Positions 39,293 to 63,413 of a stretch of 64,000 nt of DNA are shown one piece after another (position 1 is the first letter of the stretch; the number at the start of each line of letters is the position of its first letter). A program made the position numbers and the translations under genes. A model generated the notes under the pieces. The model was not told where the DNA came from and ran no database searches. It saw only the letters and a program-made list of their open reading frames with translations. The stretch is from Colletotrichum lupini (Eukaryota > Ascomycota > Sordariomycetes > Glomerellales > Glomerellaceae): the NCBI RefSeq assembly GCF_023278565.1, contig NC_064678.1:744001-808000 (forward strand). Reading direction: 5' to 3'.

Positions 39293-39982
39293 TCACACGG
39301 ATGCAATGACTTCTTCGATGATCTTCTCAGCGAGATGGATCAGAGAAGTACACTGAGTGACTTCCATAGAGGTTAAACCAATGTGGAACTGTTGATGAAT
39401 CCAGTCCACCAACTCAATCGAAATGATGGAGTCCAAACCAATCGAGGTCAAATTCTCAGTAAGGGGAAAATCCTCAATTGGCCTCAGCATAAGATGACTG
39501 AGATTGGCACTGATGAAGCGAGCGAGGCTGGCGGCTGTCGCGCTGTCTCGGAGAGTAGCGGGATCGGATCTGGCAAGCGAGATGAATGTCTCGGCCTCAT
39601 CATTCTCCTTGGTCTCCCCAGAGCCTGCGGCGTTCATTTTGTGGAAATAGTGAGACTGAGCGAAACGAACATCTCTCTTCCAGTTGACACGATTAGATGG
39701 ATCAGAAAGAGGCTTCTCAGAGAGACCTCCAAGGCAGAAGCTGCTGAACGGCCCTCCAGAGGAGTTGGCCACAGCAATGGCCGCAGAGTCGAGAACATCC
39801 TGCTCCTTCAGAAAGAAGAAGCCACCGTTCTTAAAGCCCTCGTAGAGATCATCCCGCTCGAGAAGGTATCCGACGTCACCAACCACCCCAAGGTCGATAA
39901 TAGAGGCAGGAAGACCGAGGTGATGGCGATACTTAACAAAAGCATCGAGGTAGGTGTTTGCCGCACTGTAGTTGGCTTGGCC
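39293..39982 (-). CDS. PKS C-terminal part: end of KR and ACP
   Basis: Begins at the far side of the retrotransposon with QANYSAANTYLDAF, which contains the KR catalytic Tyr. It continues to the acyl carrier domain, where TSIGLDSIISIELVDWIHQQF carries the serine for the phosphopantetheine arm, and ends at 39293. The fragment has no start codon or promoter of its own. Its first 5 bp are one copy of the target duplication. Confidence 0.87.
   Translation of the reverse strand, partial: GQANYSAANTYLDAFVKYRHHLGLPASIIDLGVVGDVGYLLERDDLYEGFKNGGFFFLKEQDVLDSAAIAVANSSGGPFSSFCLGGLSEKPLSDPSNRVNWKRDVRFAQSHYFHKMNAAGSGETKENDEAETFISLARSDPATLRDSATAASLARFISANLSHLMLRPIEDFPLTENLTSIGLDSIISIELVDWIHQQFHIGLTSMEVTQCTSLIHLAEKIIEEVIASV
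39978..39982 (+). repeat. Target-site duplication TGGCC, left copy
   Basis: TGGCC directly before the 5' LTR; partner at 46953-46957. Confidence 0.9.
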
Positions 39983-40184
39983 TGTCGGATTGGAAGTCTA
40001 ATTCGACCGCGGCATACAGCCGACTGCGCAGGGGCTAATTAGGGGCCCTATTTACGATTATCGTAGCTAGCCTAACCTATAATTAGAACCTCCTTTTTAT
40101 ACTTACGCAGATATTTAAATAGTTTAATTAATCTCTTTGTTAACTACGGTTCGAACTAACTACCTTATAATAGGGATACTAATA
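39983..40184 (+). repeat. 5' LTR of Copia copy 2
   Basis: 202 bp, TGTCGGATTGGAAGTC to GGGATACTAATA. It matches the copy 1 LTRs along its length with mainly transitions. Confidence 0.88.
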
Positions 40185-43100
40185 CTAATTAGTAGTTAAA
40201 TTTTATTATTATAGATCGGTAAGGTATCTTGCTACGTAAAAGAGACGACCTCTTAATACCGTACGGGATAGGAGATTCGTACTAATTAACCTTACGGAAG
40301 TAGATAAAAAAGGAGGCGATTCTTAAATACCGTATAGAATTAAGTAATCGTAGCTTTTTATTACTTACGAGAGGTCGACGTTTATTATATTAAACTACGC
40401 TAGTTAATAAAACTACTTAGGTAATTAGTATTTCGCCGTCGCTTTAAGTAGCTTTTTTTATTAAATAACTTCCCCGCGGCCGGCCCGCGATTAGAAATTA
40501 ACTAGCTAAATTAGTAAAAGGAATTCCCTATACGACGACTACTTACCTAATTAATTAGCGCGACGAACGGGCTTAATAATATAGTATAAAAGAGCACTAC
40601 GTAATTAAAAAAGGGAATTTCTAAACGTAGACATTCTTATTTAGCGACGAAAGTAACCCTATAGGAGTTATTAAGCTAAGAGATCTATAGTATACGGAAA
40701 AGTCTATTATTATAGGGATCTTATAGGTATACCCTTAAGCCCGCGATCTAAACGACCTCTTCGTAGCTCCCTTAACTACCCCCCGGGTATTACTTAGGAA
40801 TATAGTATAGGGGACGGTTTAACGAGGGAGGAGGGGATTTAGAGGTCCTAATAATATCGAGTTAAGAGTATTACGGATCTCGGAGATTAACTTAAAAAAA
40901 AAGTAGCTACCCTAAAGTAGTCCTACGACCTCCCACTAGAGTTACTATTAACTTAAAAAAAGGCTAAAAAAACGAGGATCTAAGGAAAAAGAAAAGAATC
41001 CTTTAGAGGGCCGCTAAAGGGCTTTTTTTTATACTAGCTTACGGCGTAAAATTACTAATTTCGAGAAATCGGTAACTAGTAAAGATCCCGAGACTAATTA
41101 CTATATCTTATTACGGTAATATAAACGTCTACTGCTACTATTATTAAAAGGAACTACTAGAACCTACCTTTTTATATTAGATAAAAAGGAGGATCTTAGT
41201 AAGTACAATAGCTAGCGATTTAGAAAGGTAGTAGTAATTACTAGAAATAGTAAAAACGAGAGTAGTAGCGAGACGGCGAGAAGAAGCGGGAATTTCCTAG
41301 ACCCCGATAAATTCGTTAGGTAGTAAAAGCACGGATTTACTATAACTAGCGCGCGGATTAGATATATCCCTATTAAAATTAAATACGTTAATAACCGCTA
41401 ATATAAGTATAAGCTAGAGTACGACCCTTAGCGAGTTAGGGTAAAGAAGAAGAGGACGAAACCCGATCTTAAATAGAATCCTAATCCTTTATAAGTAAGT
41501 AAATATTAACCCGGACTATTAGGGGACGTGGATATATAGAATCGTAGATTAGCCTAACGGCAAGTAAATTAACGCGGCATTAATCTATTTAACTAAGGTC
41601 TATGAGAAAAAGGGGCTATAGGGGTAACCCCTATTTTATAAGATCGTAAACGACCTTAGCTATTAGCTAGATAAATAGTTCGCAAGCGTAAGCTTAGGAA
41701 TCGCAAAAGCGGTTAATAAATTCTTTTATAAGCGAGGGGTACTATTAGCGTAATTATAATTACGAGAACCTTACGAAATCCTAGTAGCGACGATTATAGA
41801 GGAGGAATTCGTAATATAGACCTAGGCATAAGTCGATAGGGCGTACAATTACTTTAACAAATTTAGAAAAAGGGTAAACGACCCAGATTTCCTTCCTATA
41901 ATTACTAACGGCAATCTATCGTTATAAAAGGATATATAGAGGTAAAATATAGTACTAGAAGTACGATAATCGATAATTCTGCCTATTTCGATCTATAGCT
42001 CGTCGCCGCTACTAATACGAAATTCGGTACTAATCGGTTAGTAAGAAAGGAGGTAGACTACCCGAAGTTACTAATAGTACGTAGCAACGCAAGGATCGTA
42101 TATAAATACTAAAAATCTAGTAATAAATACGAGGTAGTTTATAGACTTTAAAAAGATCTTCCTAAAAAAGAAATTATACTCTGGGGGGAAGTATAAGGTC
42201 TTATAAGAAACCCTAACGATATTTTATAATTATTACGAAAAAGTCGGAATTAGGGAATACTAGTACTATTCGGTAGTTAATATCGTACTCGTAGGCAAAG
42301 CCTCTAATTACTACTACGAAGCGGTGCGTAATCTCGATCGAAACGACTTTCTTAGTATAATTAACGTAATCCGAAGCCGCTTTAAGACTTATAATAAGAA
42401 CCTAGAGCTCCTATCTAAGCTACGAGCGATTTCTTTTATATTTATAGCTAGGATAATAGAAGGTAAATCGTAAGTAGAAATCCTCGAAGAGCTTATTAAT
42501 CGAATTAATAAGCTAGCGAAAACCTAGCTAAATAAGGGGACTAACGAGCGGAAAGTCGGATATTTTTATACCGTAGTTTAGCGCGTTTTAGAGGCGAAAA
42601 TAACTCTATACTAAGTACCTAAAGACTACGAGACGCTCTGCTCGAGGCTAAGATTTAGCTTTAATATTAAGGTAAGAATACCGTGCTAAACCTATTTCTA
42701 AGCGTATAACGGCCCTTATTAATAGTATTAGGTCGACTGAACGTATAATAAAAAAGGAAAGGAAGCTAGGTACGGTAATCGTTAGTAGGGAATCCTAAAT
42801 TCGTTAAATAGGTAGAGATTTAACTCGCGAGCAGGGTAATAAAAGAAGTAGTATTTTATTTATAAAAAGGATAGATATTAGTTAAGTAACTACTCTAAAG
42901 AAGAGCGTGCTAAATCGTACGAATAATATAGAAAATCGAGGGTAGTAGATAGTAAAACTAGCCCTTATCGATTTAACTAATTCCTCGTTATATATAAAGG
43001 CAGATCCGGGGGTACGGAACTTAGCGAAAGTAGCTAATTTAGCGGCCTAAAGCACCCGCACCCTATAGGAGATTCGGAAGATAAGGAAGATCTTACCCCC

Positions 43101-46100
43101 TATACCGACGAATTAGATTACGACGAAGTCGACGATATTAACTACTCTTTCTTCGCCCTGTTAGCCTCGGGAGGATATACGAGGCTAAATAAATAAAAAG
43201 TAGTAGAAGCCCTTAATAAATAGGCTTTTATCTATAGATAGTAAGGGAAGGTCCCTTAGATAACGGATATGGAGGTAGGTAAAAGGACGAATTTAATAGC
43301 GCAGAATTTTACTTTTTTAATATCTAAAGAAAAGAGATAGGGTGCTAAGTAATTCTAGGGGTAGCTAGAGGGGTCCTTTTTATACTACTTAGATTACTTA
43401 AATACTAAGCTCGTATAGGCATTCTACGCGAACGAAAGGTACGGCCTAGATAATTTTTATAGGATTATCCTAGATACTAGGGTATTATAATAGTTAATAA
43501 GAAGAAAAGGGTAATTCTAGGCGCTATAGAAAATCGTATTAGTAACGCTTAATACGTTAATAGTAGGTATTACGAGGATTAGCTTCGGCCTAGGTAAGGA
43601 AATCGTCGCCCTAGGTACGGTAGAAATAGAGACGCACTTCGGAACGATAACTTTCTATATCCTACTCGTTAATACCCTATTTCTCTTATATTTAAAAAAT
43701 ATAGATCGACTAAGTATTATATTCGATAATACGAGGAATAGAATCTCTAGCCATAAGTACTTTAAAATAGTTAAACGACGATGGGGGTACGCGTTTATAA
43801 GGCTTACTAACGACACAAAGTCGATTAATTACTTAACGGAAAGTGAGCTTAGATAACTATACTAAAGATTTAGCTATTCGTTAGTCGCGAGGCTATATAA
43901 CCTCCTAAAGTATTTAGGTAATAATAATATCGAAATAGGGGCGCTAGAGTAGTTAACGAAAGTATATTACTAATACTAAATAAATACGCAGAGCCTACGT
44001 AGATTTAAATTTAAATTGCGTAATAAGCTTAACTTTAATTAGGAGATCGTTATCGATATCTTCTACTTAAATAGTCGACCGGTCCTATATATAATCGACG
44101 AGGCTATATTATTCTAAGTAGGGCAATTCCTACGGGACTTATAAGCAAAAATAGTATAGGTAGCTCTACGAAAAAGCTAGATCGATATATACTAAGGACC
44201 GCTAGACGGTATTAGAACCGACGCTAGCACTAGTTTTAAATTAGTAAAATTTAAGGAAAATGCGACGGCCTACGGTATATAGTTAAAAGTCGTGCCCGTC
44301 GAAGCGTATTATAGTATTAGAAAGGTAGAAAGGGCGTACTAGTAATTAAAAAGAGCGTTTAAAATTATTAAAAAGGAAAATCCCGATTCTAACGACGACG
44401 AATGCCTCTAGACGGTACTTAAATATTATAACGATATTATGGGGCCTAACGGGCTTATATTAACGCTTTTAGTATTTAGAGCATATTTAAGAACGACCTT
44501 AGCCTCGCTACCGTCGCTAGACATAAGCTAGCGAGCTTAAGTAGTTAAAAAAATAATACGAATACTACGCAAAGTAAGCGTAAGAAAGTAAGTTAATAAG
44601 GTAATTACTACGCGCAATAGGCCCGATATAGGGGTTAATTTAGATATACCCCTAAATTTAAATATACGAGTATAGCGCGAAATTACTTAATAATAGGCTA
44701 GGCTATATAAATTAATTTCCGTCGACGAGCGTTCTTATATAGTTGCGAGAGATCGCGACTAGCTACTCGAGGTATTAATTATAGTAGTTAGACTATATTA
44801 TATAGATCCTATCGAAGTGATTTCTAGCCTATAAGAAGAAGAAGAGCTAGGGGAAGCTATATAACCCGTAGTAGAGGTATAGGAAATTATTTTTAACGAA
44901 ATCGTTATAGTAGTATTAATAGACGACGAGGAAGAGGAAATTGCTAAAAGAGTACTAATATGTCGCGGGAGATTATAATAGTAAGCACTAACGCGGCAAT
45001 TTATTACTAGCGACGAGGTAATTAATACTTTTTATATAATAAAAGAGAAAGCCGATTTTGAGCTAGTAATTAAACTACGCAAGGAAGGCGTAATTATAAT
45101 TATTAAAAAGCCGTATAAGGGATTAGATCTTATTAAAGTAGATACTCTGCGCGATCGAGGGGTCTATCGATTTATCCTCTACGATTTAGAAAAGTATATA
45201 AACCTTTACATATTTAAATTGCGAATAGTTCGTAAAATTAAAAAAAAAGGAATACCCTAACCGTACGAGAAGTCTAGATACGTAATTTAGGGGTACGGTA
45301 ATATTAAAAAGGCGACGCTACTTATATAATCGCCTACTATATAGCGCTATAGCTAACGATTAATAATAGTACTAATAGTATCGTTACGGAAGAAGGGATA
45401 CGAGATTTAGAGCCGTGATATTACCTAGGTATATACCCAATCGGCCACAGGGCTCATAAGGAAAATCCTAGCCCATTTACCGAAGGAAATGGCTAGTAAG
45501 TACCTAGAAAGTACGATTATTAAAGTGCTTAAGCTACTATATAGGCTCGTAGAATCGGGTACTTATTAGTAGGCTACCTATTACGATTTTTATATTAATT
45601 AATTATTAATAATTACCTCTACGTACGACCCGTGCTTACTAGTTACGGAGCACGAAGGCGACTAATTTAGGATCGTTAGAATACAGACCGACGATATATT
45701 AGGCCTATCCGATATTAACTTTATAAAAAAAGAGGATAAGGAGCTCTAAAAAGCGGGCTTCGTAACGAAGCTAAAAGAGGTCCTTATAATAAATACCCCC
45801 CTAGTATTTAACGGCGGGATTCTTATAATTAAAAAGGAAACCGTCGTTTTTTAGTAAAAGGGGTAGGGCGAGAAGATTAACCTCGTCGACCCGAACGTAA
45901 CTAATATTAAAAAGCGGTATAAGGCTAAGCTTATACGAGGGGTATATATTACGAGTATTTATTAGCCCGAGGTAATTTTTAACTACGCTAGGGTAGCATA
46001 AGCTATAGATCTAACCGAACGAGACGTTAAGGTACTTAATAAGCGGCTTAAGTAGTAATAAACGAATCTCGATCGAGGTCTCGTTTATTACCTAATCGAC

Positions 46101-46750
46101 CTTATAATTAGTAAGCTCTACGTCTTTATCAATAGGTTATTTACGAATAATAACGACCTTATTTCGTAATTAGGGTATATTATTATCCTAGCTAACGAGA
46201 GTATAAGCGAGAGCGAATTTACTATATATAGTAATATAATCTATTACTCGTTAATTAAAAATAAGTGGGTAACGAGAAGTATATTAGTATTAAAGGTCTA
46301 TAATATAGTTAACGGCGTTAACCTCTCCTACGCGATTTTAATAACGCTAAGGAAGATTACTAATCGAATTAGCCTTCTACTTATTCTAACGGTTATTTAT
46401 ACTAATTCCTACTCGCTATATAAATACCTCGTTAAATTAGGAACGACGAAGGAAAAGAGGCTTATGATCGATATTATAGCCCTTAGGTAATCGTACGAAA
46501 GGCGCAAAATACTTAAGATCCGTTAGATTAATAATAAAAATAACTTCGTAGACGCTTTTATAAAAGTAGTACTAAATAAGGGATTAGAGTAATTCGTAAG
46601 TAGTAAAAAAGTTACTATACGAATAGAGGGATAGGTTATATAAAAAGAATAGAAAAAAGGGGGAAAAGGAGACGACTTAGTAAACGGGCCCGAGGTCGAA
46701 TTATACCTCTAACCGTAGCGGTTAAATTGATAAAAAAAAGAGAAAGTTAG

Positions 46751-46952
46751 TATTAGATTAGAAGTCTAATTCGACCGCGGCATATAGCCGACTGCGCAGG
46801 GGCTAATTAGGGGCCCTATTTACGATTATCGTAGCTAGCCTAACCTACGGTTAGAACCTCCTTTTTATACCTACGCAGATATCCAGATAGTTCAATTAAT
46901 CTCTTCGTCAACTACGGTTCGAACTAACTACCCTATAATAGGGATACCAACA
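46751..46952 (+). repeat. 3' LTR of Copia copy 2
   Basis: 202 bp, TATTAGATTAGAAGTC to GGGATACCAACA; same length as the 5' LTR. Confidence 0.88.
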
Positions 46953-46957
46953 TGGCC
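46953..46957 (+). repeat. Target-site duplication TGGCC, right copy
   Basis: TGGCC directly after the 3' LTR, inside the PKS KR domain. Confidence 0.9.
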
Positions 46958-49900
46958 ATAGTAACCTGTGTGCCCACCACCAGAGCCGAATATGACGAAG
47001 AAGTCCAACGGAACATTCGCGTCTAGAAGTGCTTGATGGACGTTCCAAGTCCCACGGACCCTAGGATCAACCACTCCACTCCACTCCTCCCAAGTCATCT
47101 CAGCAGTAGAATTATCCTTGAGCACGAGGGACAGTTGCATCACACCAGCGACGGGCTCGGGAGCTTCGTTGATTGCCTTGAGTACGTCACCGGGATTGCT
47201 AACGTCTCCGGAGATCGTCTTGATGACGGATCCAGGATAGCTTTCGAGCTCCTTCACGAAAGGCTCATTATCGGCACTTCCAGCGGATCTCGACAGGAAC
47301 ACAAGGTTACGGGCTCCATGCTCGAGCAACCAAGTGGCCACAGATCGACCAAGGCCGCCGAAACCGCCAATGAGAAGGTATGAGGCATCGTTTCGGAACA
47401 TGGAAGCTTCCTTAGTTGATGGAATAGCCTGACTGACTTCGGGCTCAGAGAAGCCGAACCAGGACATGCGAGGTATTTGAACCTTGCCATCCACGATGGC
47501 GTAATCGAAGTCCGCGTCCAACTCTCCGCCTTTGCGACGGTTTGGAAGACTCTGTACAATATTCAATAGAGCTTTGGACATACCGTTGCTAGATATTGAG
47601 ATGTCATCGACATCGACAAGAGTAATGTCTGCCTTGTTCTCCATCCGAACGGTTCTAGCAGTACCCTGAATCATGGCTGGCTTGGCATCCTTGCAAGCGC
47701 CATGAACGGCGGGGATGACCCAAATGAGTGAATCACTCAAGTTGCATAGGCTGTCGATGAACGGCCGGAAAGTCTCAGAGCTAAGGTCGTAGATTGTGTT
47801 TCCAGTAAGGTCCAGAAGTGAGATGACCACAGACCCATCAGAAGGAACTGTGTTCTGGTGGGATACTCGTGTAGTGAACCCCTTAGACTCACATTGAGAC
47901 CTGACGCCACTAGCAAGCTCAAGTCCTTCCTTCGAATTGTGTGCTAGAATGGTGATAATTGTGCTCTTGTCCATCTCGGTAACCTTCATTGGCTCAGCGA
48001 GTATCAAGCCAGTCGGTGTCTGTGAATGAAAGACGAAGCCAAGGCATTTCAGTCTCTGGCTAATCTTTTCACAATCAGAAGCACCACCGGTTGCAATACC
48101 GTCATCGTGAACGATCAGTCGGCTTCCAGCAGTCTGAAGTGACTTCAATTCCGTCAAATCATCAAGTAGGTGGCGATCATCCGACAACAAGGTCGAAATC
48201 GACAAGAGGATAATGTCAGTCGTGTTGCACATGCAAAGCTGCTCGAGATCAACGACCGAGACGCTTTCGCGATCCAGACTTGCAACTGCCTCGGTGACTT
48301 GGTCAACCTGTTCCCCAGAGGTGCATACATAGGTGTACTCAGAGTAAAGGCGCTTATGTTGGGTAGGCTGCAGAGCATCTAGAGCAAGTCGAGTAATGTC
48401 GGTTGATCCTGATCCAATCTCCAATACTTTCGAGTCAGGAGACTTGAAGCCGAGGAGAGAAATTACTTCGGTAGTGTCCTTGACAAGATCCGAGTTGGCA
48501 GTCCCGACTTCGGCAAGGGAGTCCAGCATAGTGATATCGTCTCTCCATTCAAAGGTGCTTCCGAGGAGAACTTCTTCACGCTTGGCGACAGGTAGCTCAG
48601 AGTAAGAGAGACCTTCCAGATACACCGTAGGACGACCTTCATCTGTGTAGATGGAAGCGTTTGCGGTCATGCCTTTAGCATCTTCCTGGATACTGCCGTA
48701 AGCTCTCATACATAAGTCCTGGTTCCCGAGGACACCCAGTCGCGAGATGAAGGTGGGAAGCAGGATGCTGTCTAGACGCCGCTTCTGGCCATGTGTTTGC
48801 GCCACGAGGTTAATCTGAAGCATTTGATCCAAAAGTGTCGGATGAGCAGCGTAGTGCGTCGTGTCTTCAAAGTCATAAACTGTCGCTGTGGCCTCCCTCT
48901 TGACTGTGTTCGCGGTGATCTGCTCAAGGCCTTGGAAAGCGGTCTGCCAGTCAATGCCAACGGCCTTGACAGCTTTGTACCAGCCTTCAGCGTCGATCTC
49001 GCGAGCAAATTCTTGCTCAGCCTGAGCGCTTGCGATTGAGGTCTTCTCTGCCTCAGCTCCTGAGCGGATGTAACCAGAGCAGTGCGTGACCCATGCGTGT
49101 CCATCGTAGGACATGATTTTGAAGTTGTACCATTGGCCTTCGTCACTAAGCTTGTCTTCCGGAATCATGCGCGTGTATAGTTCCATCTTCTTCTCCTTGG
49201 GGATTGTCATGCCGGTGATGATTGACATATCCCTAATGGTGTACGCATCTGAGCCGTTGGCTACCTGACGCATGGCCTCTCCAGCCATGGCCATGTAGCC
49301 GGCTCCAGGGAATACGATCTGACCGTTGACGATGTGGTCCATCAACCAAGGAACTTCCTTGAGATCAAGCATGTTTCGCCAGGCAGGCTCAATATCATTG
49401 CCCTCAAGAACCCTAGCGCCGAGAAGCACATGTCTGGTATGCTTTCTTTGCTTGTAACGGGAAGGATTGCGAGGTTCATCCATATAGGTTACATCGTGTA
49501 GCCAAGGGTAGGTCGGCAGATCGGTCAAAACTCTGCCCTTGGGGATGATGGTGGCCATGTCGGCCGGGGCTCCTTGTACGAAGAGCTCACCAGCCAGACG
49601 GAGCATGGATAGGTTGGTATCTTCAGCACGGCGGAGGGTAGTGATGTACTCGCAGGAAGAGTCAGGCACGCTCCGAAGGATCTCACTGATGGGACGTTGG
49701 AGAGCCGGATGGGGGCCGACCTCCACGAAGAGATTGTTGTTATTGCTCTTCAAGATCGCTCTCATCGCCGTATTGAATAGCACAGGCTGGACGAAGTTTC
49801 GGCGCCAGTAGTTGGCTCCAAAGTCAGCTTCGGTCATCTCAAGACCAGTGACGCTCGAGAAGTGAGGCACGGTCGGAGCCTTAGCATTGACAAGGTATGG

Positions 49901-52374
49901 CTTCAGGAGCTCCTCGTATGGCCCACCCAAAGGCTCGATCCAGGGAGAGTGGAAAGATGTCTCCAAGTTCAAAACCTTAGCCTTGACATCAGGATGGCGA
50001 CGCATGATCTGGTCAATGCAGTGTTGGATGCAGACGGGATCGCCTGACAAGGTGGAGTTGAGATGACTGTTCTCACAGCCAATGACGACACCTGGAATCA
50101 AGAAGGGCTCAACCTCCTTCGGGCCAAGACTGACAGCAGCCATAGTACCAGGCGGGACAGTGCCGTTGACCAAGAGCCAGCCGCGGAAGTAGGCAACAGC
50201 CATGGCGGCTTCGGCGGTGACACTACCGGCAGCGTACGCAGCAGCAGCCTCTCCTCCAGAGTGGCCAGTAACAGCATCAGGACGAACGCCAAGGCTAGCG
50301 AGAACATCGACCAACGCGATCTGAACAGCTGTTGCGCATGGGTGAGAGTATCCCCGCTGGCCAACCCTGCTAGAGTCATCGTCGATAGACAGCTCCTTCT
50401 CCAAGGACCAGGTTGGCCTGTGTTCTTCGGGAAGCGACTGGAGCCATACGTCCAGCTTCTTGATGGAGTCTCGGAACACCTCGTTGGTTTCGATCAGTGA
50501 CTTGCCCATCCCGGCCCAGTGCACACCCTGTCCAGTAAAGGTCAGAATGAGTCGCCGGGAGGTGGTTGGCTTGCGCTTGAAGCTGCTCAGGTCAAAGACA
50601 CCCTCCTCGTTGGCAATAGCATAGGCTCTGCAGCTGAGGTGATCGCGATGATGACCCAGAGTGTAAGCAAGATCATCAAGATCAGCGCTCTTAGTCTCAA
50701 TGTACTGCTTGTGTTGGTCCACTTGCTTTTCGAGAGAAGTCAAGTGCGCAGCGGAGAACAACAAGAGTCGCTGTCCAGGAGAGCGAACGCTGACGCCTGA
50801 GTCTGAGCTGATAGAGCTAGCATCATCTTGCAGCTTTTGCCAACCATCATAAGACTCAAGAATGACCTTCAAATTATTAGCGGGGAGCTTTCGTCAGGAT
50901 AAGGGCAGAGTTCTTACATGAGCATTGGAGCCAGCCACACCAAAGGAATTGACACTGATGCGCTCATCTCTGTCTGCAGGCCAGAAAGTTGGCTCCGTCG
51001 GGACCGAAAGCTTGGCCTCATCCCATGGAACTGTGCTGATGTTAGTATCTGACAATCAGGTTACTTACGATGAACTCACTCCTTGGATTGGGGTTTTCCA
51101 TGTAGATGTTCGGCGGAATAACTCGATTTTCTAATGCGAGGACTGCCTTAATGACACTTGTCAGGCCTGCCGCACCTTCTGAGTGACCGACGTTAGGTTT
51201 AACCTGAGTACTCATGTTAGAAAACCTCAACCTTGCATTGAAAACATGGTGAACTTACAGCGCCAATCATCACGCCATCATGATCCTTCCAGATTCGAGC
51301 AACTGCCGCCACCTCAAGTGGATCGCCAGTCGGAGTACCAGTGCCATGGCACTCGAAGAAGGCCGTCTTATTGAACGGAAGACCAGCCTTCTCGTAGGTC
51401 TTTCGAATCAAGGCCTCCTGCAAGTAAGTGTTTGGACTCATGATGCCGTTAGACCGACCATCGTTGTTGGTGCCGCTTGCTCGAAGAATGGCTCTGACTG
51501 GGTTACCGTCTCTGAGAGCATCGCTTAATCTCTTGACATAGACAGCGTTGACAGCTTCACCGCGGCCGTAACCATCGGCAAGCAGATCAAAGGTTTTACA
51601 TTTGCCGCTTGGAGACAAGACACCGGTTTCTGTGAAGACAATGGATGTGATGACTGATGTGATGAGGTTGCATCCCAGAGCCATTGCCGACTTGCATGTA
51701 CCATTTTGAACAGCTTCAGCAGCCAGGTGTAAAGCAACCATGGATGAAGAGCATCCAGTCTTGACAAGCATACTTGAAGGATGTTAGTCACTGCGAATCG
51801 TCACTCACACAGGCTGCGCCACTTACCTCGGGCCAGTCCAGCCGTACTCATATGATACACGGTTAGGCTGTAAGAAGTCGAGGTAGCCAGATCCTCGGTA
51901 TAGTCCAGAAGCGTGCGGGTCCATTGACAAGTCATCTTGCCAATCTGACGAGAAGTTGCCAACATAACAGCCGATCTCTTGGCCGCGCCAGCTGACCTCG
52001 CCGGCATTGTCAAGACATTCTCGCGCAATCTCCAGCAATTGCCTTTGCATGGGGTCCATGCGCTCGATTTCCTTCTCACCACATGTGAAGTAAGAGGCGT
52101 CAAATTTGGTAAGGTCATTATCGGCTTGGGTGAACATGTATGCCTCCTTGTTCTGAACCGTTCCCCACTTTGCAACGGGACTGTAGAAGCCTTCGCTATT
52201 CCATCTCTCTTTAGGGATGGGGATCAGACCGCTTTGCTTATTCATCATCAGGTTCCAGAAGTCTTCCGTGTTCTTCACGCCACCGGGAAGCCTCACGGCC
52301 ATTCCCACGATGGCGATGGGGTCAGAGGTGCCCATCTCGGATGAAGGCGTGGCGGCGCCCGACTTTGATGACAT
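46953..52374 (-). CDS. PKS N-terminal part: KS-AT-DH-MT-KR (truncated)
   Basis: KS: the active-site cysteine lies in [15 protein letters not shown] (the usual form is VDTACSSS), with the two histidines in [13 protein letters not shown] and [25 protein letters not shown], nucleophile Ser in [14 protein letters not shown], and [10 protein letters not shown]: the catalytic His in [15 protein letters not shown] and the Asp in [10 protein letters not shown]. The methyltransferase-like region is short for an active cMT. KR: the NADPH site is in [22 protein letters not shown]. The frame then runs to the retrotransposon border, reads about eight LTR-derived codons and stops. KS, AT and DH appear catalytically complete, but without the KR end and ACP the chain has no carrier. 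Confidence 0.88.
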
Positions 52375-52977
52375 TGTCTAAAGCGTGGTACAAAAGATGG
52401 TAAAAGCCCGCAAACGCCTGCTGAGTGAGAGTCAAATGCCAGCCTAGCAAAGGATATCGTGTAGTTTTGGCTGTGTATTATGGTTTGGGTTAAAAAGCCA
52501 ACGAGATTACTTCGACACTAATGTAGAGCTTCTTAACAAGAGATGAACAATGTTGCAACGGAGTTGATCTCGGTATTCCAGAAGACATCCCCTATGTTGG
52601 CAGAATAGGTGAGTCCGAGTTTTGCGAAAGTCTATTGCTCGAATTCCGAGAGCCATATTTTTTCCGTCTAATGTGATTGGCTGCGAGAATCGACTTGCGA
52701 ACACCTCATGATGACCCGGTCCCTGCACAGCTTGCGGTCCGAGATGTGTCACAACATGAAGTTCAACACTCCGAAAGACACCAGCCAATGGACCAGGCAA
52801 GTAACTTGGATGGACGAAATTTAATTTCACATCAGGAGTGCACGTGGTGTCATGTAACGGTCGTGTCAACAAAGAAATTCTACTGAACGACTTGAGAGAT
52901 ATTCCGTCTACAGCTCTACTACAGCACTGCTGCGGCTGGCGATTGGCATCACTCATCAGCTTGGTTCTTATACAATT
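52375..52977. other. Divergent promoter region, PKS and enoyl reductase
   Basis: About 600 bp between divergent ATGs, which suggests shared control of the PKS and its presumed trans-ER. Short frames inside carry no motifs. Confidence 0.55.
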
Positions 52978-54167: not shown

Positions 54168-55303
54168 AGTAGATACACGTAGCTTCAATTTCAGACTTCG
54201 TTATGGCCAATCATGTAATATCATGAGAAAGATGCATCGATCTTAGAAGGCAAGTTTCCGACACGGAGTATCCCAAGTCTGGACATTTTGGTGGCCTTCA
54301 TTGTCCCTGGGTTCAACAGGTCTCTGAGGCATGAGCTGCGCGAGAGTTAGTGGTCGAACAGGGCGGCGATGGATGACTCGCGCATTAAACCACCTGAAGT
54401 AACTTTCACTGAGTCCTGGCACAGGCCTGCCAAAATCCGACCCCGTGCGGTCCGTCAACTCGGCAACGATGAAGCCACTCACATATCAGTGTTACTCCGG
54501 ATTCGGGAGTCTCTAAGGAATAGGGCAAGGCTCAAATAATCCGAAATGAAGTAGCGAGCCTGAAATGTATGGGAGATTCAAGACAGCGGCCCCGAGCGAC
54601 TCGCATCTTGATGGTGAGCCTAATCCAGGCCTCGACACAGAATCATAGTGCAACAGGCCGTGGCTTTGTCCCCCTCCGTTTAGATGAAGGCGTGAACAAC
54701 AGAGTAGAAAGCTTACATTTCAGTATCAATAGTGTTCATGTTCAAATGAATCAAACAAACATCCTCTTAATCTCGTAAGGTATTCCATTGAATGAAGGAA
54801 ATTAGCGGGAATAATCCTCAAAATAGAAGTCGTCGTGGGAGGGTTGATACCAGAAAACTACGATGCACGGATTAGCTACAGTTGTACTAACTCATTAACG
54901 CCATAATTACTTGATCAAAATCCGTCACTATGTTACTCCTTACATTCGACATTTATGAGATTCCCAAGATATTGAAACAGAACCGTACTAATGGAGATTG
55001 CGCGAAATGTATTTCACTAATGAGTTGGTTTAGTGATGAAATTGCGACTCGTTCATCGCTGTCCGAGGCACATAGAAGGGGTTCCGCGCGATTAAGTGAC
55101 CTCCGCGCCGGACCGATGGTCCCCCCCTCTCCACATGAGCGACGGATTGACAGCTCCGGTACTGTAGAATCGTCGGGCTTATGGTTAAAGTACTCATGCA
55201 CTACGTGTAGTTGCCTCAGTTGTGACATCAAGGACGCCATAGTATAATCTGCCGCATCAAAGACGTAGTCATAATTCAGAGTCGACCAGCATCAGATGGC
55301 AGA
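54168..55303. other. Intergenic, no supported gene
   Basis: About 1.1 kb; only short frames without motifs. It contains the promoter of the methyltransferase at 55304. Confidence 0.5.
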
Positions 55304-56419
55304 ATGGCGGCCGTGGAAGCCTTCAACGAAACGAGAGACAGTACGGACAGGATTGTCACCGATTGTGGATTTGCGGGCTACTATGAAAACGTCCACTCAC
55401 GACAGAAATTGCTCATCGTTCAGCTGATCATGAAATCGTTCCAAAAATTGCGATGCGATATTGCGCGTACAAAACCGGGCCAGAAGCTGAGACCGATCAA
55501 ATGCACCGCCAACCTACGGAAACAGCTCGACTTCTGCTATGAAATGCTTTCAGATGCAGGACTTGTGCGCCAAGAAGGAGATTCGTTCATCAGGACAGAC
55601 ACACCCACACCACCTGGAAATCCAAAAGATGCTCTTCAACATATTCTCAACGACTTTCCGACATACACATCTCTGAACAAGCTTGTGGCTCACGCGGGTA
55701 ACAACCTCGCCGAAATTTATGTGGGACGTACCGATGGCGTCCGATCGATTTTCGGGTCCCCAGAAGGGCGCGAGTATCTGGAAGATATCTATGGCGCAGC
55801 GCATCCGAGCAAGGCCTTTCACAAGCTCATGGAAGACTTCATGACCCGCTTCACAAAGAGCGTCACCATCCCTCACGGTTCTCAACTCAAGATCCTGGAG
55901 CTTGGCGCTGGAACAGGGGGCACAGCCAAATGGCTTGCCCCGTTGCTCGCTAAATCGGGAGTCCCTGTCGAGTACACCTTCACCGATCTGGCACACGGCT
56001 TCATTGCTCAGGCTGCGCGGAAGTTCCAAGACTACCCCTTTATGAACTATCGAACACAGGACATCGAGAAGCCACCACCTGTAGATCTCGCGCACGCCCA
56101 GGACATAGTCATTGCTGTAAACGCAGTTCACGCCACCCCCGACATGGTAAAATCACTTACCAATACGCGCCAATTCTTACGACCTGGCGGGTTTGCACTG
56201 GTGATGGAGGTGCAGGAGCGTTTGTGCTGGGCTGACTTTGTGTTTGGGCTGTTTGAGGGATGGTGGTTGTTCAGCGACGGGAGAAAGCATGCGACGGCTG
56301 ACGAGACGGTATGGCGGGATGCTTTCAAGGCATCTGGGTTCGATCATATTGATTGGACTAAAGGGAAATTGAGGGATTCCGGCCTGCAGAGAGTTTTCCT
56401 GGCGACGGTGGCCGAATAG
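55304..56419 (+). CDS. Stand-alone methyltransferase resembling a PKS C-methyltransferase domain
   Basis: An intact single-exon frame of 371 residues. The first ~110 residues (FAGYYENVHSRQKLLIVQLI and LDFCYEMLSDAGLVRQEG) resemble the helical region in front of C-methyltransferase domains of fungal PKSs. Then come GAAHPSKAFHKLMEDF, SAM motif I LKILELGAGTGGTAKWLAPL, VEYTFTDLAHGFIAQA, and FGLFEGWWLFSDGRKHATA near the end. All are hallmarks of that CMeT family, here as a free protein. It should transfer a methyl group from SAM, likely to a polyketide-type carbon, though homologues may act on other substrates. It follows the enoyl reductase on the same strand after a 1.1-kb gap. It could belong to the PKS cluster or to the adjacent exporter and precursor locus. 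Confidence 0.83.
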   Translation: MAAVEAFNETRDSTDRIVTDCGFAGYYENVHSRQKLLIVQLIMKSFQKLRCDIARTKPGQKLRPIKCTANLRKQLDFCYEMLSDAGLVRQEGDSFIRTDTPTPPGNPKDALQHILNDFPTYTSLNKLVAHAGNNLAEIYVGRTDGVRSIFGSPEGREYLEDIYGAAHPSKAFHKLMEDFMTRFTKSVTIPHGSQLKILELGAGTGGTAKWLAPLLAKSGVPVEYTFTDLAHGFIAQAARKFQDYPFMNYRTQDIEKPPPVDLAHAQDIVIAVNAVHATPDMVKSLTNTRQFLRPGGFALVMEVQERLCWADFVFGLFEGWWLFSDGRKHATADETVWRDAFKASGFDHIDWTKGKLRDSGLQRVFLATVAE

Positions 56420-57385: not shown

Positions 57386-59131
57386 ATGGCTACTGAGAAG
57401 CAGGTTGAGATTGGCGCCGAGCGGCAGGATGAGGATGGTGACATCGTTGTGGACTGGAATGGGGAAGACGACGAGAGTAAGCCCCTGAACTGGTCAACTA
57501 CTCGAAAGTGCATCAACGTTGGACTTGTCAGCGCCTTAACTTTCATTGCGTAAGTCATCCTGCGTCCCAATACGACACGAGAGCGAAGCTGGAATAGCTG
57601 ACTGACTACGAATGATGTGGCTCTATAGGTCCATCGCCTCCGCCATGTGTGCACCTGGAGTCCCAGACATGATGGCGGAATTCCATAGCGAGAGCAAAGT
57701 CCTCTCATCCTTCATCGTCTCTATTTTTGTCTTAGGATATGCAATTGGTCCAATGTAAGTTCTGTTCGCCTCAAGGTAATGAAGCCTCAAGTAATAATCA
57801 ACTTATGCTCGTCAGCTTCTTTGCTCCTTTATCCGAGCTGTATGGGAGACTGCCCATTTACCACAGCTCAAACATCCTCTTCACTCTGTTCAGCATTTTG
57901 AGCGCTGTATCACCAAACCTGCCGGCCATCATTATCTTCCGTTTCCTCTCTGGCGCCTCGGGTGCAGCCCCCCTAGCCATCGGCGGTGGCACCATAGCTG
58001 ATCTCATCCGACCCGAGCGACGAGGCTTGGTGGTGAGCGTCTACTTCGTTGGTCCCATCCTTGGACCAGCACTGGGACCGGTCGCGGCCGGCTATATTTC
58101 ACAGGATCTAGGCTGGCGATGGATTTTTTGGGTCACTGCAATCCCTGTGAGTGCTTGTCGGGTACAGTGGTCTGATTCCCATTGCTGATCAAGAGCCACA
58201 GTCCGGTGCCTTCACGTTGATTTGCTTCCTCTGTCTGCGGGAGACATATCCTCCAAGACTGCTGCACCAGCGTGCAGTGGCTTTACGGAAAGCTCATCCC
58301 GAAAGCACTTTCGTAGCGCCGGGTGAAAAGTCGGCGTTGAGTCCAAGTACGCTCCTTCTCAATGCACTGGTTCGGCCAGTCAAGATGTTTTTCTTGAGCC
58401 CAATTGTGCTTGTTCTCTCAACAATACTTGCTTTAGCATACGGGTATATGGTAAGCCCCACGAGGTTTCTACACAATGTGGCGTGAGGCTGATAGCAAGC
58501 AGTACATACTATTGACGACATTCACTCCGGTCTTCACCTCGGAGTACGGCTTTTCGTTGGGCACAGTCGGTTTAGTCTACCTTGGCCTGGGCGTAGGTTT
58601 CAGCGTGGGAGCAATTTGCAATGCGATCTTCAACGACCGCATGGCCAATCGACGAACTGCACGCAACGATGGACATCGTGAGCCTGAGTTTCGACTGCCT
58701 ATCATGGCCAGGTCGATCTTGCTTACACCCTTGGGACTATTATTCTACGGCTGGACCGCGCAGTACCACTTGCACTGGATACTCCCAATCATTGGCTCAG
58801 CCCTTCTCGGAGCCGGACTAATCCTTATCATGGTGGGTGCTCTAACATCTTCATACATTCCAGATACTAATCAAGCGACCAGATGCCGTTGCACACATAC
58901 CTCATCGACGCGTTTACGAAGTACGCTGCTTCTGCGATAGCGGCATCTACCATCTTCCGCTGCATCGTTGGTGCATTTCTGCCACTCGCAGGGGAGTCAT
59001 TGTTCAATCGGCTAGGGCTCGGCTGGGGAAGTAGTCTTTTAGGATTTGTCTCACTTTTGCTCTGTCCGGTTCCGTGGCTACTTCAAAAATATGGCCAGGC
59101 AGCTAGAGAGAGGTTTGCTGTCACATTCTAA
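57386..59131 (+). CDS. MFS exporter, DHA1-type multidrug/metabolite
   Basis: ATG 57386. Six exons (introns 57550-57628, 57755-57815, 58147-58201, 58451-58502, 58833-58882) join to 1449 nt, 482 residues, all in phase. A hydrophilic N-terminus ends in DDESKPLNWS, the start typical of fungal DHA1 transporters. Twelve hydrophobic segments follow. The loop 2-3 signature reads APLSELYGRLPIYH, and ADLIRPERRGLVVS and GPILGPALGPVAAGYI correspond to the antiporter region. The C-terminal half has MPLHTYLIDAFTKYAASAIAA. It should be a plasma-membrane proton antiporter exporting a small metabolite. It lies between the methyltransferase and the UstYa-like pair, where RiPP clusters of the ustiloxin/phomopsin type also carry an MFS gene. 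Substrate is unknown. Confidence 0.88.
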
Positions 59132-59446
59132 ATCACTCCATGACACACGTAATTACCATAGTTCACAGACCGATCACCAGGGAGTAGAAGGGCGATGGTT
59201 TCTATTCAAGAATATGTCTTATCTAGCTACTAAGAATCGTTTTGCTATTGTTGGTGGCGGATTACAGGTTTAAACTCTTATTCTGAGCCATAAAGACATT
59301 AATATGGATTATGAATCCATTTTCTGGATTGAACATGTTTCTTCCGTGATTAATATCTGGCTTGACCAAATTCACACTAAAGATTTGCGGCCTTACAGTG
59401 ATCATAACCTTGACTTAGTAATAGAGATGCCTGTGTCACGAAATTC
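59132..59446. other. Intergenic between converging MFS and UstYa-like gene
   Basis: About 315 bp, AT-rich 3' flanks; nothing recognised. Confidence 0.5.
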
Positions 59447-60208
59447 TCACCACTCTCTTGCCCTTCCTAGTGATCTGTCCTCTGCCAGAGTCACACATGG
59501 TGTGTACTCAATGTCGAGATGTGAGTTGATAGCGAACGGGTCTTCGACGTGCATATTTATCAACACATGATCGGCACAGTGTGTTGAGTGATTCCAGTTG
59601 ATAGCATAAGCCGGAACTGTCGTTTTCCATCGTGCGGCGCTGCTGAGAATTTTCCATGTTGCAACACAATGCCAACGATGAAGATCCATAGACACCCATT
59701 TTATGTCTTGCGTGCCCTTCATAACTTGGGGTAGAGTGATGGCCTTTGTCGCATTTTGGTCCTCAAAGAACTCCCACGGCCATACGTGCTCAAATTCGTC
59801 AATGAGTTCGGGAGAAGAGCATTGTGTCGGCATCCAGTGGAGCAGAACGTCATCGTAGATGCAACCTGCTGCGCGGGCTTCGTTGGGCGTATTCCCGCAT
59901 GCTGAGGACGGCTCCCAGGCGCGAAAGGTCTGTCCACCGTCTACGACACTCCATTCTGGGACGATGGTAGACATTTTCGTGGGTGAGTCTACGAAGTATG
60001 CTGCCAAAGCAAATGAAAAGACCAAGATGGCTCCGGATGTGGAGTAGCCAATGCCTTGAAAGATCTTCCTCCAAGGGAATCGTCTTGGATAATGATTCAA
60101 CACCTGCTTCGACGCAATTTCCTCCAGTATGTCGTCGTCATAGCTGCTGGACTGAGAGGATAAGAGCCTCTCTTCCGCTTCGTTGCTATGGTCTGTGGTA
60201 GTTGACAT
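59447..60208 (-). CDS. UstYa-like single-pass membrane protein with two HxxHC motifs
   Basis: Intact single-exon frame, 253 residues. A cytosolic tail rich in Ser and acidic residues is followed by one membrane helix (about 55-73, SGAILVFSFALAAYF) and a lumenal domain. That domain carries the order seen in a fungal family related to UstYa (DUF3328): CGNTPNEARAAGC (104-116), LHWMPTQCSSPELIDEF and WPWEFFEDQNAT. Two HxxHC motifs follow, H177-R-W-H180-C181 and H207-S-T-H210-C211. Paired HxxHC motifs mark UstYa-type oxidases that cyclise or hydroxylate core peptides of dikaritin RiPPs in the secretory pathway. The N-linked site in NAT (152-154) fits a lumenal location. It is divergent from a paralogue at 60954 and 2.4 kb from a kexin-repeat precursor, so precursor modification is the natural hypothesis. 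Assignment is by motif order, not by a search. Confidence 0.75.
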   Translation of the reverse strand: MSTTTDHSNEAEERLLSSQSSSYDDDILEEIASKQVLNHYPRRFPWRKIFQGIGYSTSGAILVFSFALAAYFVDSPTKMSTIVPEWSVVDGGQTFRAWEPSSACGNTPNEARAAGCIYDDVLLHWMPTQCSSPELIDEFEHVWPWEFFEDQNATKAITLPQVMKGTQDIKWVSMDLHRWHCVATWKILSSAARWKTTVPAYAINWNHSTHCADHVLINMHVEDPFAINSHLDIEYTPCVTLAEDRSLGRAREW

Positions 60209-60953
60209 TATTTGCTACTGACTTAGGCAGAAAAGTTGCGTAAAAACAGTAGGGTAGTGTAAAAAAAAGTTGCTTTACATGTATCCGCTGTACGACAAGA
60301 CCGTGGCATCCTCTATTCCATGTTTGAGTAGGACTACAACCTGCCCAGGTGGCTACAGAATATGTGAGGCGGACTTGCTTGAGTGAGAGTTCTGCCTCGG
60401 ATTTTTACGACAACTACCCGACAAAATGCACTAACAAGACAAGGTACTCAAGGTTCAGTTGTAAAGCATGAGTGCGGAACCCGAGAAATTCTCCAAGCTC
60501 CCGCTAGGACCCTTATGAAGTGTGTCACAATTCAAAGCTTAAACACAAAGTCGAGAACATCCACAGGACTAACCGAGCACAGAACGTAAACGAAGAGCTT
60601 GTCCCTTCTTACCGGGATCCTCTCGAGAAAACAAGTGGAACCACCTACTGTAAACGGTACTATGACTGCACTAACGATATATGGACGTCAGTTTCGGAAG
60701 TTAATCGACTTGAAGGAGGAGCTGGGCAGACGACACGGAGACTTTCTTCTTGATCGCCCAGCTCTTACTATAAGCGACCGTCATATCCTAGCTACAAGCT
60801 GACTCGGAGATGATGACGCGGAAGATATCATCCCCGCATGGTTGGCCTAGGCAGAAACAAATGTCATGTAGTGCCGACATATGTTATCTATCGCCCTCTC
60901 AACAAGACTGCCTATCACGTACTTCCAGTCACCACCGCTGTCACCGTGCAATC
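60209..60953. other. Divergent promoter region of the UstYa-like pair
   Basis: About 745 bp shared by two divergent starts; only short shadow frames. Suggests co-regulation of the pair. Confidence 0.5.
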
Positions 60954-61712
60954 ATGGCAAACCACCGCGAAAAGGTCACAAGATTCGAGAAAAATATGGA
61001 CAATAGCCTTTCACCTTGTCTACGACTTCTTTTCTTTCTTCTAGGCGCATCAATATGCACCCTTTTCACTCTTCTGGTTCCCTTCTCTCCATTTTACGGA
61101 ACTGATCACGGGAATCACGGTCACTCTGATACCAACCTCGGGCTCATCACCGGCCTGCTCAAGGACAAATTCCCTTGCGGCAGAGATACTCCCACTGCAT
61201 TGTCACGTGGGTGCAAGTTTGAGTCATACACGGCGACATGGCAACCTCCGCAATGTTTTGACTCGGCTCTAGATGCCGAGTTCCGCCAGACTCGCCCATG
61301 GAAGTTCTTTACGTCTCGGAATTCAACCACCGAGTTATCCTGGTCTGACGTGGAGAAGATCAAACCAGGACAGGCGTGGACGACATGGGAGTTCCATCTC
61401 TACTCTTGCGCGTTTCTGTGGAAGAAAGAGGTCAAGATCGCGCACGGATTGGTCTCTGGTACCATCGACTACCACCAGTGCCTAGACCATGCGTTGATGC
61501 ACGACTACGCGAGGCCCAAGGACCATGTGAGTATCCCTTACTGGCCTCGCTTTACTTCTTGTCGACCGCCTAGCGACATATCCGTTCACCAATTCGATTT
61601 GAAACCTGGTGTGGAAAAGGGGCTTGGTATTGATGGACAACTGGCTGAAGTGCATGGCCATTCTCATATTCACGGGGCGAATAAGGAATTTGATCACAAG
61701 CCAAGGGAATAG
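60954..61712 (+). CDS. UstYa-like paralogue with degenerate HxxHC motifs
   Basis: Intact, 252 residues from ATG 60954; the frame is open further upstream, but this ATG directly precedes a charged tail and a membrane helix (about 24-44, RLLFFLLGASICTLFTLLVPF). The lumenal part mirrors the neighbour at 59447: PCGRDTPTALSRGCKFE (75-90) and WQPPQCFDSALDAEF, then RPWKFFTSRNST. At the first motif position it has H148-L-Y-S-C152 (HxxSC). At the second it has D172-Y-H-Q-C176, where both expected histidines are replaced. It is therefore either a partner subunit without its own metal site or an oxidase with altered chemistry. A His-rich stretch lies at the C-terminus (HGHSHIHG). It is transcribed toward the precursor gene on the same strand. 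Confidence 0.72.
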   Translation: MANHREKVTRFEKNMDNSLSPCLRLLFFLLGASICTLFTLLVPFSPFYGTDHGNHGHSDTNLGLITGLLKDKFPCGRDTPTALSRGCKFESYTATWQPPQCFDSALDAEFRQTRPWKFFTSRNSTTELSWSDVEKIKPGQAWTTWEFHLYSCAFLWKKEVKIAHGLVSGTIDYHQCLDHALMHDYARPKDHVSIPYWPRFTSCRPPSDISVHQFDLKPGVEKGLGIDGQLAEVHGHSHIHGANKEFDHKPRE

Positions 61713-62614
61713 ACCATTTTCGTCACTGGAGGCAAATGTTGTAGCAGACTGATTAGCCAATGTCTTCGTTCTCGGGCTCGCCATGCAATAGTATAGTCAC
61801 CATTCCTACCATAAATCCCACATATCGTGACGATTAACGTAAAGTCCTCTGATCCTCATACGTGGGTAACCAAGTTCGTTTCAAGTCAAGGTTCAATACC
61901 CTGAACATGGTGGAAATCACAGTCTAGACTACCGGGAACTGATCCATCATTGGGCAGACAAAGTAAGCTACACACTATTGTCGATAACCGAGAGAGACAG
62001 TGTCTTCAGAATTTCACCTTACGACTAGGTTCACAATAAGGATCAGGGTTTTTTAGTAAAAACAAAGCAGGGCAACTACTTGTTCTCGAAAGTATCCCAC
62101 TTTCCGCCGTTTAAGCTTCCGTCATCCCACCCAGCAAGCTCAAGGTTGGAAGCCTTTTGTGTGCGTGCCCAAACTATCAACTTGGCCTTGCCAAAGCTGC
62201 ATAAGGGGACTCAAACGCGCCGGGGATCCTCTTTGGGGTCATTGGAGCAAGAAAGTAACGCGAATCGACTAGGAAACCTTTCCAAATTGAGTCATTGTTG
62301 CTAGCTATGCTCTTGGTGATACACGGTTCCGCGGATGTACGGCTCGAGCCGGAACATTAATCATTATTCTATAAGCTAGTATATGCAAATGGAGATATTC
62401 CAACAAACCTTGAGGTAATCAACTACCGCAGATAACGTGACTAGGTCTGCTCGTCTGCCACGAGGGTGTCGGAAGACAAGCTGTAAAAGGGAGTAGGAAC
62501 GCCATATATGACCACGTTACATCCCACGCTGTCTACCTTGGTGTTCGAGCATCTAACAAATCAGACAACTACAATACACCAACTATATCTGTTATCATTA
62601 TCCAACAACTCACA
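61713..62614. other. Intergenic upstream of the repeat precursor
   Basis: About 900 bp without a supported gene. The last 110 bp hold a possible TATA element and a CA-rich leader before the precursor ATG. Confidence 0.5.
62503..62510 (+). promoter_or_regulatory. Possible TATA box of the precursor gene
   Basis: CATATATG about 105 bp before ATG 62615, followed by a CA-rich leader (ACAACTACAATACACC). Position fits; otherwise unsupported. Confidence 0.3.
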
Positions 62615-63413
62615 ATGAGATTCACCGCCCTTACTTCCGTTGCAATCCTTGCAGCCACTGCTCTTGCGGCACCGACCATCCAGAGAGAGGAGAAACGGGC
62701 TTTCGTCACTGACGAGCTTGGTACGTGTTTGAAGCACTTAAGATTCCGTAGACAATTGAGTGGTCTAACTGACGAGTAAAGATCCTCGCGCGTTTGTCAC
62801 CGAAGACAAACGCGAGTTTGTGACTGAGCCAGAGAGACGCTCCTTTGTTACAGAGGACAAGCGAGGATTTGTCACTGAGGAGAAGCGTGGTTTCGTCACC
62901 GAAGATGAAATGGGGAAGAGAGGTTTCGTCACCGAGCCCGATATGAGCAAGCGTGGCTTCGTGACGGAGCCAGAGAAGAGATCTTTTGTCACTGAGGACA
63001 AGCGCAGCTTCGTGACCGAACCCGAGAAGCGCGCCTTCGTCACTGAGGGTAAGCGCAGCTTCGTGACCGAACCCGAGAAGCGCGCCTTCGTCACTGAGGA
63101 CAAGAGAAGCTTTGTCACGGAGCCCGAGAAGCGCGGTTTCGTCACTGAAGAGAAGAGGGGCTTCGTCACTGAGCCTGAGAAGAGATCCTTCATTACAGAG
63201 AAGCGTGGCTTTGTCACCGAGGACAAGCGTAGCTTTGTTACGGAGCCTGAGAAGAGATCTTTCGTCACTGAAGACAAGCGCGGCTTTGTTACCGAGCCTG
63301 AGAAGCGTGGATTTGTCACTGAGGAGAAGCGCTCTTTCATCACTGAGCCCCACAAGAGAGGCTTTGTCACCGAGGACAAGCGTGCCTTCGTTACTGACGA
63401 GGACATGGAGTAA
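62615..63413 (+). CDS. Secreted kexin-repeat peptide precursor, candidate RiPP (dikaritin-like)
   Basis: ATG 62615, one 61-bp intron (62721-62781), stop at 63413; 245 residues. Residues 1-19 form a clear signal peptide (MRFTALTSVAILAATALAA), followed by a short leader ending in EEKR. The rest is 25 tandem units of the form (A/G/S/E)-F-(V/I)-T-(E/D) plus an acidic tail. Nearly all end in Lys-Arg (one RR, one DPR); typical units are SFVTEDKR and GFVTEPEKR. KR is the Kex2 cleavage site in the Golgi, so processing would free many copies of acidic 5-9-residue peptides. Signal peptide plus KR-separated repeats is the architecture of ustiloxin- and phomopsin-type RiPP precursors and of other fungal kexin-processed repeat proteins. 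Two UstYa-like genes and an MFS exporter lie within 5.3 kb upstream. The core has Phe but no Tyr, Cys or Trp. A wall-active or signalling peptide is the main alternative. Confidence 0.85.
62699..63410 (+). repeat. Tandem coding repeat, 25 units of mostly 24 or 27 bp
   Basis: Each unit encodes xFVT(E/D) plus a tail and Lys-Arg. Two lengths dominate: 8 codons (ending EDKR, EEKR or EGKR) and 9 codons (ending EPEKR). They often alternate, giving a higher-order period near 51 bp. Units 6 and 7 have 11 codons (DEMGKR, PDMSKR); unit 17 has 7 (SFITEKR). An intron interrupts unit 1. Silent codon differences between units show the array is not a recent identical expansion throughout. Confidence 0.88.

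Follow-up and report, generated by a model that had tools for sequence, protein, structure and literature searches.

The closest described systems to the locus analysed here are the dikaritins (ustiloxin, phomopsin and asperipin types), which, in the available portions of two accounts (PMC9233826, PMC7329392), derive from a secreted precursor with many Kex2-bounded cores, encoded beside UstYa-family membrane proteins. The same arrangement was observed in a 64,000-nucleotide stretch of the Colletotrichum lupini genome (C5:744001-808000, contig NC_064678.1; hereafter, the window), where a precursor of 245 residues with 25 xF(V/I)T(E/D) units is encoded beside two divergent UstYa-like membrane proteins, P1 and P2. 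This is probably a dikaritin-like locus for ribosomally synthesized and post-translationally modified peptides (RiPPs), with a Phe-containing, Tyr-free core modified by divergent copper oxidases of the DUF3328 type, P2 being a non-canonical partner. A gene of the major facilitator superfamily (MFS) nearby is usual for the dikaritin class and was found here also. Unlike described dikaritins, however, the locus has a Tyr-free FVTE core; the UstYa-like proteins next to the precursor escape detection by Pfam, the double HxxHC motif is missing from P2, and neither a tyrosinase nor a methyltransferase was assigned.

Victorin is grouped with the dikaritins and is cyclised between a Phe side chain and Leu, according to the available part of PMC9233826; the FVTE core also holds a Phe. 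Chlorination, as a point of difference from victorin, is not indicated at the FVTE locus. CctR, a dimeric enzyme of the lumen with a binuclear copper site, hydroxylates an unactivated C-H bond, a description that its authors extend to DUF3328 (PMC12435403). By anatomy, it resembles the P1 model in having a cytosolic N-terminal tail, one membrane helix and a luminal domain with HxxHC(x)nHxxHC on two helices (PMC12435403), but it is a homodimer acting on a non-ribosomal peptide, whereas the gene beside P1 encodes a paralogue whose motifs are degenerate. Kex2-processed repeat proteins (KEPs) have the same architecture as the precursor. FVTE repeats were not found in the available text of PMC7329392 and PMC6339444, supplementary lists excluded, and the locus was named in no title or abstract opening found in literature searches, supplementary repeat-protein lists being outside their scope.

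The repeat precursor

The precursor gene is on the plus strand. Exon 1 (62615..62720, ATG at 62615) encodes a signal-like N-terminus and the first unit, AFVTD; after a GT..AG intron of 61 bases (62721..62781), the only one in the gene, exon 2 (62782..63413, stop at 63413) encodes the other 24 units, nearly all bounded by dibasic sites. The units comprise 10 GFVTE, 7 SFVTE, 3 AFVTE, 2 AFVTD, 2 SFITE and 1 EFVTE, and most cores are closed by D, E or PE before the KR. A first-pass annotation, made by a model from the letters and translations alone, had described 25 KR-bounded units behind a signal peptide. The repeat is real, since 10,000 shuffles of the protein produced two units at most, and the N-terminus resembles a signal peptide as judged by eye and by hydrophobicity only (peak 1.68). 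The description of the boundaries was accurate for 23 of 25 units, with RR preceding one of the others and PR the last; therefore, 24 units follow KR or RR, as in the secreted, multi-core precursors of dikaritins.

Differences among the FVTE core codons were almost all silent (pN = 0.034, pS = 0.780, pN/pS = 0.044), while the residue before FVTE was nearly free to vary (pN/pS = 0.83) and the dibasic site was intermediate (pN/pS = 0.216, first unit left out). The core is under strong constraint. Conversion can homogenise repeats, but recent copying is disfavoured here because silent divergence is high.

When exon 2 was compared with the whole genome (63,443,975 bases, 12 contigs), the sole matches were its own locus and its own antisense frame. 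The latter is open over 255 aa, but was rejected as a coding frame because the sense frame has the signal-like N-terminus, the intron and the mostly silent core variation. Pfam matches of the precursor to MFD_D3 (33.2 bits, over the cut-off of 21.8), DUF3991, NosL and others were dismissed as artefacts of composition.

P1, P2 and the UstYa family

Going upstream from the precursor, the first gene is P2 and the next is P1, the latter 2.4 kb away. P1 (59447..60208, minus strand, 253 aa) and P2 (60954..61712, plus strand, 252 aa) both lack introns, and their similarity (28% identity, E = 9.3e-10) identifies them as paralogues, placing P2 in the P1 family. P1 carries HRWHC177 and HSTHC207, conforming to HxxHC(x)nHxxHC, as did all 10 P1 homologues; two HxxHC motifs arose in only one of 20,000 shuffles of P1. 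Thus, as at dikaritin loci, a DUF3328/UstY protein with two HxxHC motifs adjoins the precursor. P2 departs from this pattern, with HLYSC148 and HQC174 (i.e., HxxxC and HxC); one His and the Cys are retained at each motif site, the second His being shifted by one residue. In an alignment of 12 sequences from this genome plus P0010, 12 of 13 carried two HxxHC and P2 was the sole exception. The UstYa-type motif order attributed to both proteins by the first-pass annotation is therefore exact in P1 and approximate in P2. Its suggestion of a single-pass membrane pair fits P2, where the one hydrophobic segment is clear (peak 2.31 at residue 25); the P1 peak of 1.58 is just below the usual cut-off for a membrane segment (1.6), although a structural model of P1 shows a helix at residues 46-73. 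A His-rich stretch was also seen in the C-terminal tail of P2 (HGHSHIH, window 61653-61673), and is a possible metal site.

Genome searches with P1 and P2 returned 15 and 13 matches respectively at E ≤ 1, themselves included. Comparison with fungal proteins, as the first-pass annotation had proposed, produced 10 P1 homologues, from Colletotrichum, Pyricularia and Paraphoma, the nearest belonging to Colletotrichum phormii (90% identity); a C. asianum homologue was 69% identical. A C. somersetense protein (P0005, 313 aa) combines a P2-like half (43% identity over a 223-residue alignment, motifs HLWQC and HQC) with a P1-like half (61% over 140 residues). Either a gene fusion or the merging of two gene models may account for it; in both cases, P1-like and P2-like genes would be neighbours in C. 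somersetense. As read from these sequences, the altered motifs of P2 are common to both species.

The connection with UstYa proteins (PF11807) was indirect. A genome-wide PF11807 search gave 32 matches, 31 of them over the cut-off, with P1 and P2 not among them. One paralogue, at C2:4178-4531, shares 32% identity with P1 (E = 2.3e-18) and exceeds the PF11807 cut-off (28 vs 25 bits), the only one of 10 divergent-family members scanned against Pfam to do so. A profile of the family matched the canonical UstYa profile across both motifs (probability 95.1, E = 3.3e-8). A second comparison gave 89.1 (E = 2.2e-6), against no more than 2.1 in 100 column shuffles and 0.08 for the reversed profile. Ten paralogues alone scored 89.8, and the full family led by P2 50.8 (E = 1.6e-4). 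On these alignments, P1 is homologous to accepted DUF3328/UstYa members by way of the C2 paralogue and the family profile; the link of P1 and P2 to UstYa runs through paralogues. The shared motifs add to it, as do the predicted helices of P1, whose motifs fall on helices 174-194 and 205-216. The P2 model had a pTM of 0.54. The divergent-family profile matched no solved structure; two weak matches of the canonical UstYa profile to solved structures (E = 0.31 and 0.87) were ignored, as were 16-column CueO matches in the P1 fold search.

Other family loci and neighbouring genes

Ten loci of the divergent family emerged from the genome searches; at two of these, C2:5789876 (E = 0.01) and C9:1037 kb (E = 0.02 to 0.05), all matches were weak. 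Repeat-containing ORFs were sought at nine loci, over 6 to 10 kb or more each, C2:5789876 not being covered. Three of the nine contain a repeat precursor, a lower bound because the scanned stretches were short. An association of these membrane proteins with repeat precursors, the lack of which elsewhere had been named as grounds for abandoning the idea, thus exists, within this genome only. On C4 (C4:1622001-1631000, L033 about 5938-6390, minus strand), a precursor of AEAEAIPFYPKR units (IPFYP-KR) has a divergent UstYa gene on one side and a canonical one on the other; its AEAE stretches resemble the STE13 sites of yeast alpha-factor. Elsewhere on C5 (C5:1943001-1953000, L031 about 7300-7649, plus strand), four divergent members stand beside a precursor whose N-terminus is signal-like and which has four GIVPVKEEDIISLGD repeats of 20 residues each (VKAGIVPVKEEDIISLGDR), none containing Tyr. 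Two of the three precursors that adjoin the family therefore have Tyr-free repeats.

Among other observations, QDDAKAYKRG repeats beside a canonical UstYa gene were cut by the end of the locus (C2:1106157-1109510, L004 1-291, minus strand). A small, secreted-looking ORF without repeats, beginning MFFARVFLPIAAI (C8:4408001-4418000, L035 about 6220-6420, plus strand), is flanked by a divergent UstYa-like gene and, on its other side, by an exon of a canonical UstYa, and is a possible single-core precursor. A further divergent UstYa-like gene (L032 3699-4427, minus strand; C5:741.7 kb) lies 1.7 kb before the window start, with no repeat precursor in the 6 kb around it. The rest of the window and L012, the sole stretches away from UstYa genes to be scanned likewise, contained no other repeat precursor.

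Upstream of P1 is an MFS transporter gene (57386..59131, plus strand, 482 aa), in a splice model without stops that was chosen by script to stay open; it has five introns (57550-57628, 57755-57815, 58147-58201, 58451-58502 and 58833-58882), and the ORF stretch 57736-58188 matches MFS_1 (E = 9.1e-23). While the first-pass annotation was correct in recognising an MFS gene, its role as the peptide exporter was not accepted, because the mature peptide should already be luminal and because genes of another pathway adjoin; the gene may serve either neighbouring pathway and its assignment to the peptide is uncertain. On its upstream side are a methyltransferase ORF (55226-56419) and a polyketide synthase (window 39293-52377, minus strand), whose ketoreductase (KR) domain breaks off at 46928 and continues at 39997, on the other side of an AT-rich block of about 7 kb. 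There are two AT-rich blocks, one at 27-34 kb with a GC content of about 0.25 and the other at 40-47 kb with one of about 0.36. The neighbouring cluster had been described as destroyed by transposons; of that description, the disruption fits. More distant within the window are an S41-type peptidase with a CPAF-like PDZ domain (18610-20526, plus strand), 42 kb from the precursor, and two non-ribosomal peptide synthetase ORFs (Condensation, AMP-binding; 4977-11879, minus strand) with a tandem-repeat stretch between them near 7771-8448. The available part of PMC11943440 mentions an S41A peptidase in connection with phomopsin-type clusters; no S41 peptidase or tyrosinase was found among the proteins scanned near the precursor, which did not include every ORF.

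The earlier view of a self-contained, three-gene locus was not sustained, since the group continues past the window end into C5:808001-828000 (L010 and L011). An MFS-like gene on the minus strand (464 aa in a splice model) ends 0.7 kb from the precursor; it was labelled by eye because its two exon stretches gave no Pfam match at 0.001. Canonical UstYa genes follow at distances of about 3 kb and 7 kb from the precursor, one from L010 2270 (exon at C5:810916, PF11807 42.3 bits) and one from L010 7099 (exon at C5:814139, minus strand, 52 bits). There is also a thioesterase-like protein of 257 aa (minus strand), with PF00975 at 26.4 bits on one exon, exactly the cut-off, and a third divergent UstYa-like gene ending at L010 5588, which has both HxxHC motifs and matches P1 weakly (E = 1.5e-4). 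An apparently intact polyketide synthase (KS, AT, DH, MT, ER, KR, ACP; L010 7680 to L011 5498), for which a model with six introns gives an open frame of 2492 aa, also lies within 16 kb of the precursor; beyond it, a NAD kinase ORF was read by eye.

Interpretation of the locus

Under a dikaritin-like reading, the precursor would enter the secretory path, Kex2 would cut after KR in the Golgi, and a Kex1-type carboxypeptidase would trim the KR, releasing peptides such as GFVTED and SFVTEPE. P1 would be a lumen-facing, binuclear copper oxidase like CctR that attacks an unactivated C-H bond, hydroxylating or cross-linking the core, most plausibly at the Phe side chain or the beta-carbon of Val or Thr. 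Rather than being an oxidase in its own right, P2 would be a partner dedicated to this task, by forming a heterodimer, holding the substrate or donating copper; the pair of canonical UstYa proteins encoded just downstream may also contribute. Such a locus is known in kind; what is unusual is the Tyr-free core, the divergent oxidase branch that Pfam for the most part does not detect, and the motif-degenerate partner common to another species.

Several observations weigh against this reading. The precursor has no Tyr or Trp and a single His, and so lacks the Tyr core at which ustiloxin- and phomopsin-type ether cross-links form; in the available part of one survey, Tyr was present in 65.6% of repeats near DUF3328 genes (PMC7329392). 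P1 had no Pfam match at E up to 1, remaining below the PF11807 cut-off, and P2 had none at E up to 10. Against the canonical UstYa profile, the close family of P1 alone was no match (probability 1.1), and P1, P2 and P0010 alone scored 0.65. Confidence in the P1 model is middling (pTM = 0.54), and a fold search with this model against the PDB returned nothing at E = 0.001 (best E = 1.9). The GIVPVKEEDIISLGD repeats elsewhere on C5 end in a single Arg, without a dibasic site. No precursor orthologue was found in the protein collection, either with the whole protein (top 8000 word-sharing candidates scored, none at E = 0.001) or with residues 1-56 (33 candidates, none at E = 10), which is weak evidence of absence because the scoring is suspected to penalise such repeats. 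Finally, the adjoining polyketide gene group could own the UstYa-family genes.

This last point is developed by the first alternative, that the FVTE peptides are unmodified, linear, secreted signals or effectors processed by Kex2, while the UstYa-family genes serve the polyketide pathway. It is unlikely, but a serious contender: the core has neither Tyr, Trp nor di-His, the apparently intact synthase and the thioesterase are within 16 kb, and a DUF3328 gene occurs within 15 genes of just 22% of such precursors in the available part of PMC7329392. Yet P2 and P1 are the very next genes upstream, and their family adjoins two unrelated repeat precursors elsewhere in the genome. Improbable, by comparison, is a joint pathway, in which an oxidised FVTE peptide is acylated with the chain of the highly reducing polyketide synthase and a stand-alone thioesterase transfers or releases the product. 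The gene order would suit it (MFS, P1, P2, precursor, MFS-like, UstYa, thioesterase, UstYa-like, UstYa, polyketide synthase, without further recognised genes in between), but this is adjacency only; separate clusters can abut, and non-ribosomal pathways also use UstYa-family proteins, as with CctR (PMC12435403). Slightly more improbable still is a degenerating or silent locus without a product, for although AT-rich blocks lie nearby and the upstream synthase is split across the second, the MFS, P1, P2 and precursor genes all show no damage, in line with the first-pass annotation, the core is conserved despite high silent divergence, and P1 retains its identity with the C. phormii and C. asianum homologues.

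The dikaritin-like reading is therefore preferred, and the earlier proposal of a Kex2-type repeat precursor beside UstYa-family proteins is supported. A more speculative and rather doubtful extension is that P1 and P2 represent a distinct DUF3328 branch for Tyr-free repeat cores, in which a catalytic subunit always pairs with a motif-degenerate one that holds the substrate or delivers copper through its remaining His and Cys and its His-rich tail; the product would be an FVTE peptide, oxidised or cross-linked through Phe, that may also be joined to the product of the adjoining polyketide synthase.

The description of DUF3328 as a family of copper enzymes dates from 2025, and its authors hypothesise an accessory protein that supplies electrons or Cu(I) (PMC12435403). 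The motif-degenerate neighbour, P2, is a concrete candidate for such a helper. Searches that rely on PF11807 alone may miss loci of this kind, for of the 10 divergent members scanned only one passed the cut-off, although in one genome the family stands next to three repeat precursors unrelated to one another, two of them with Tyr-free repeats.

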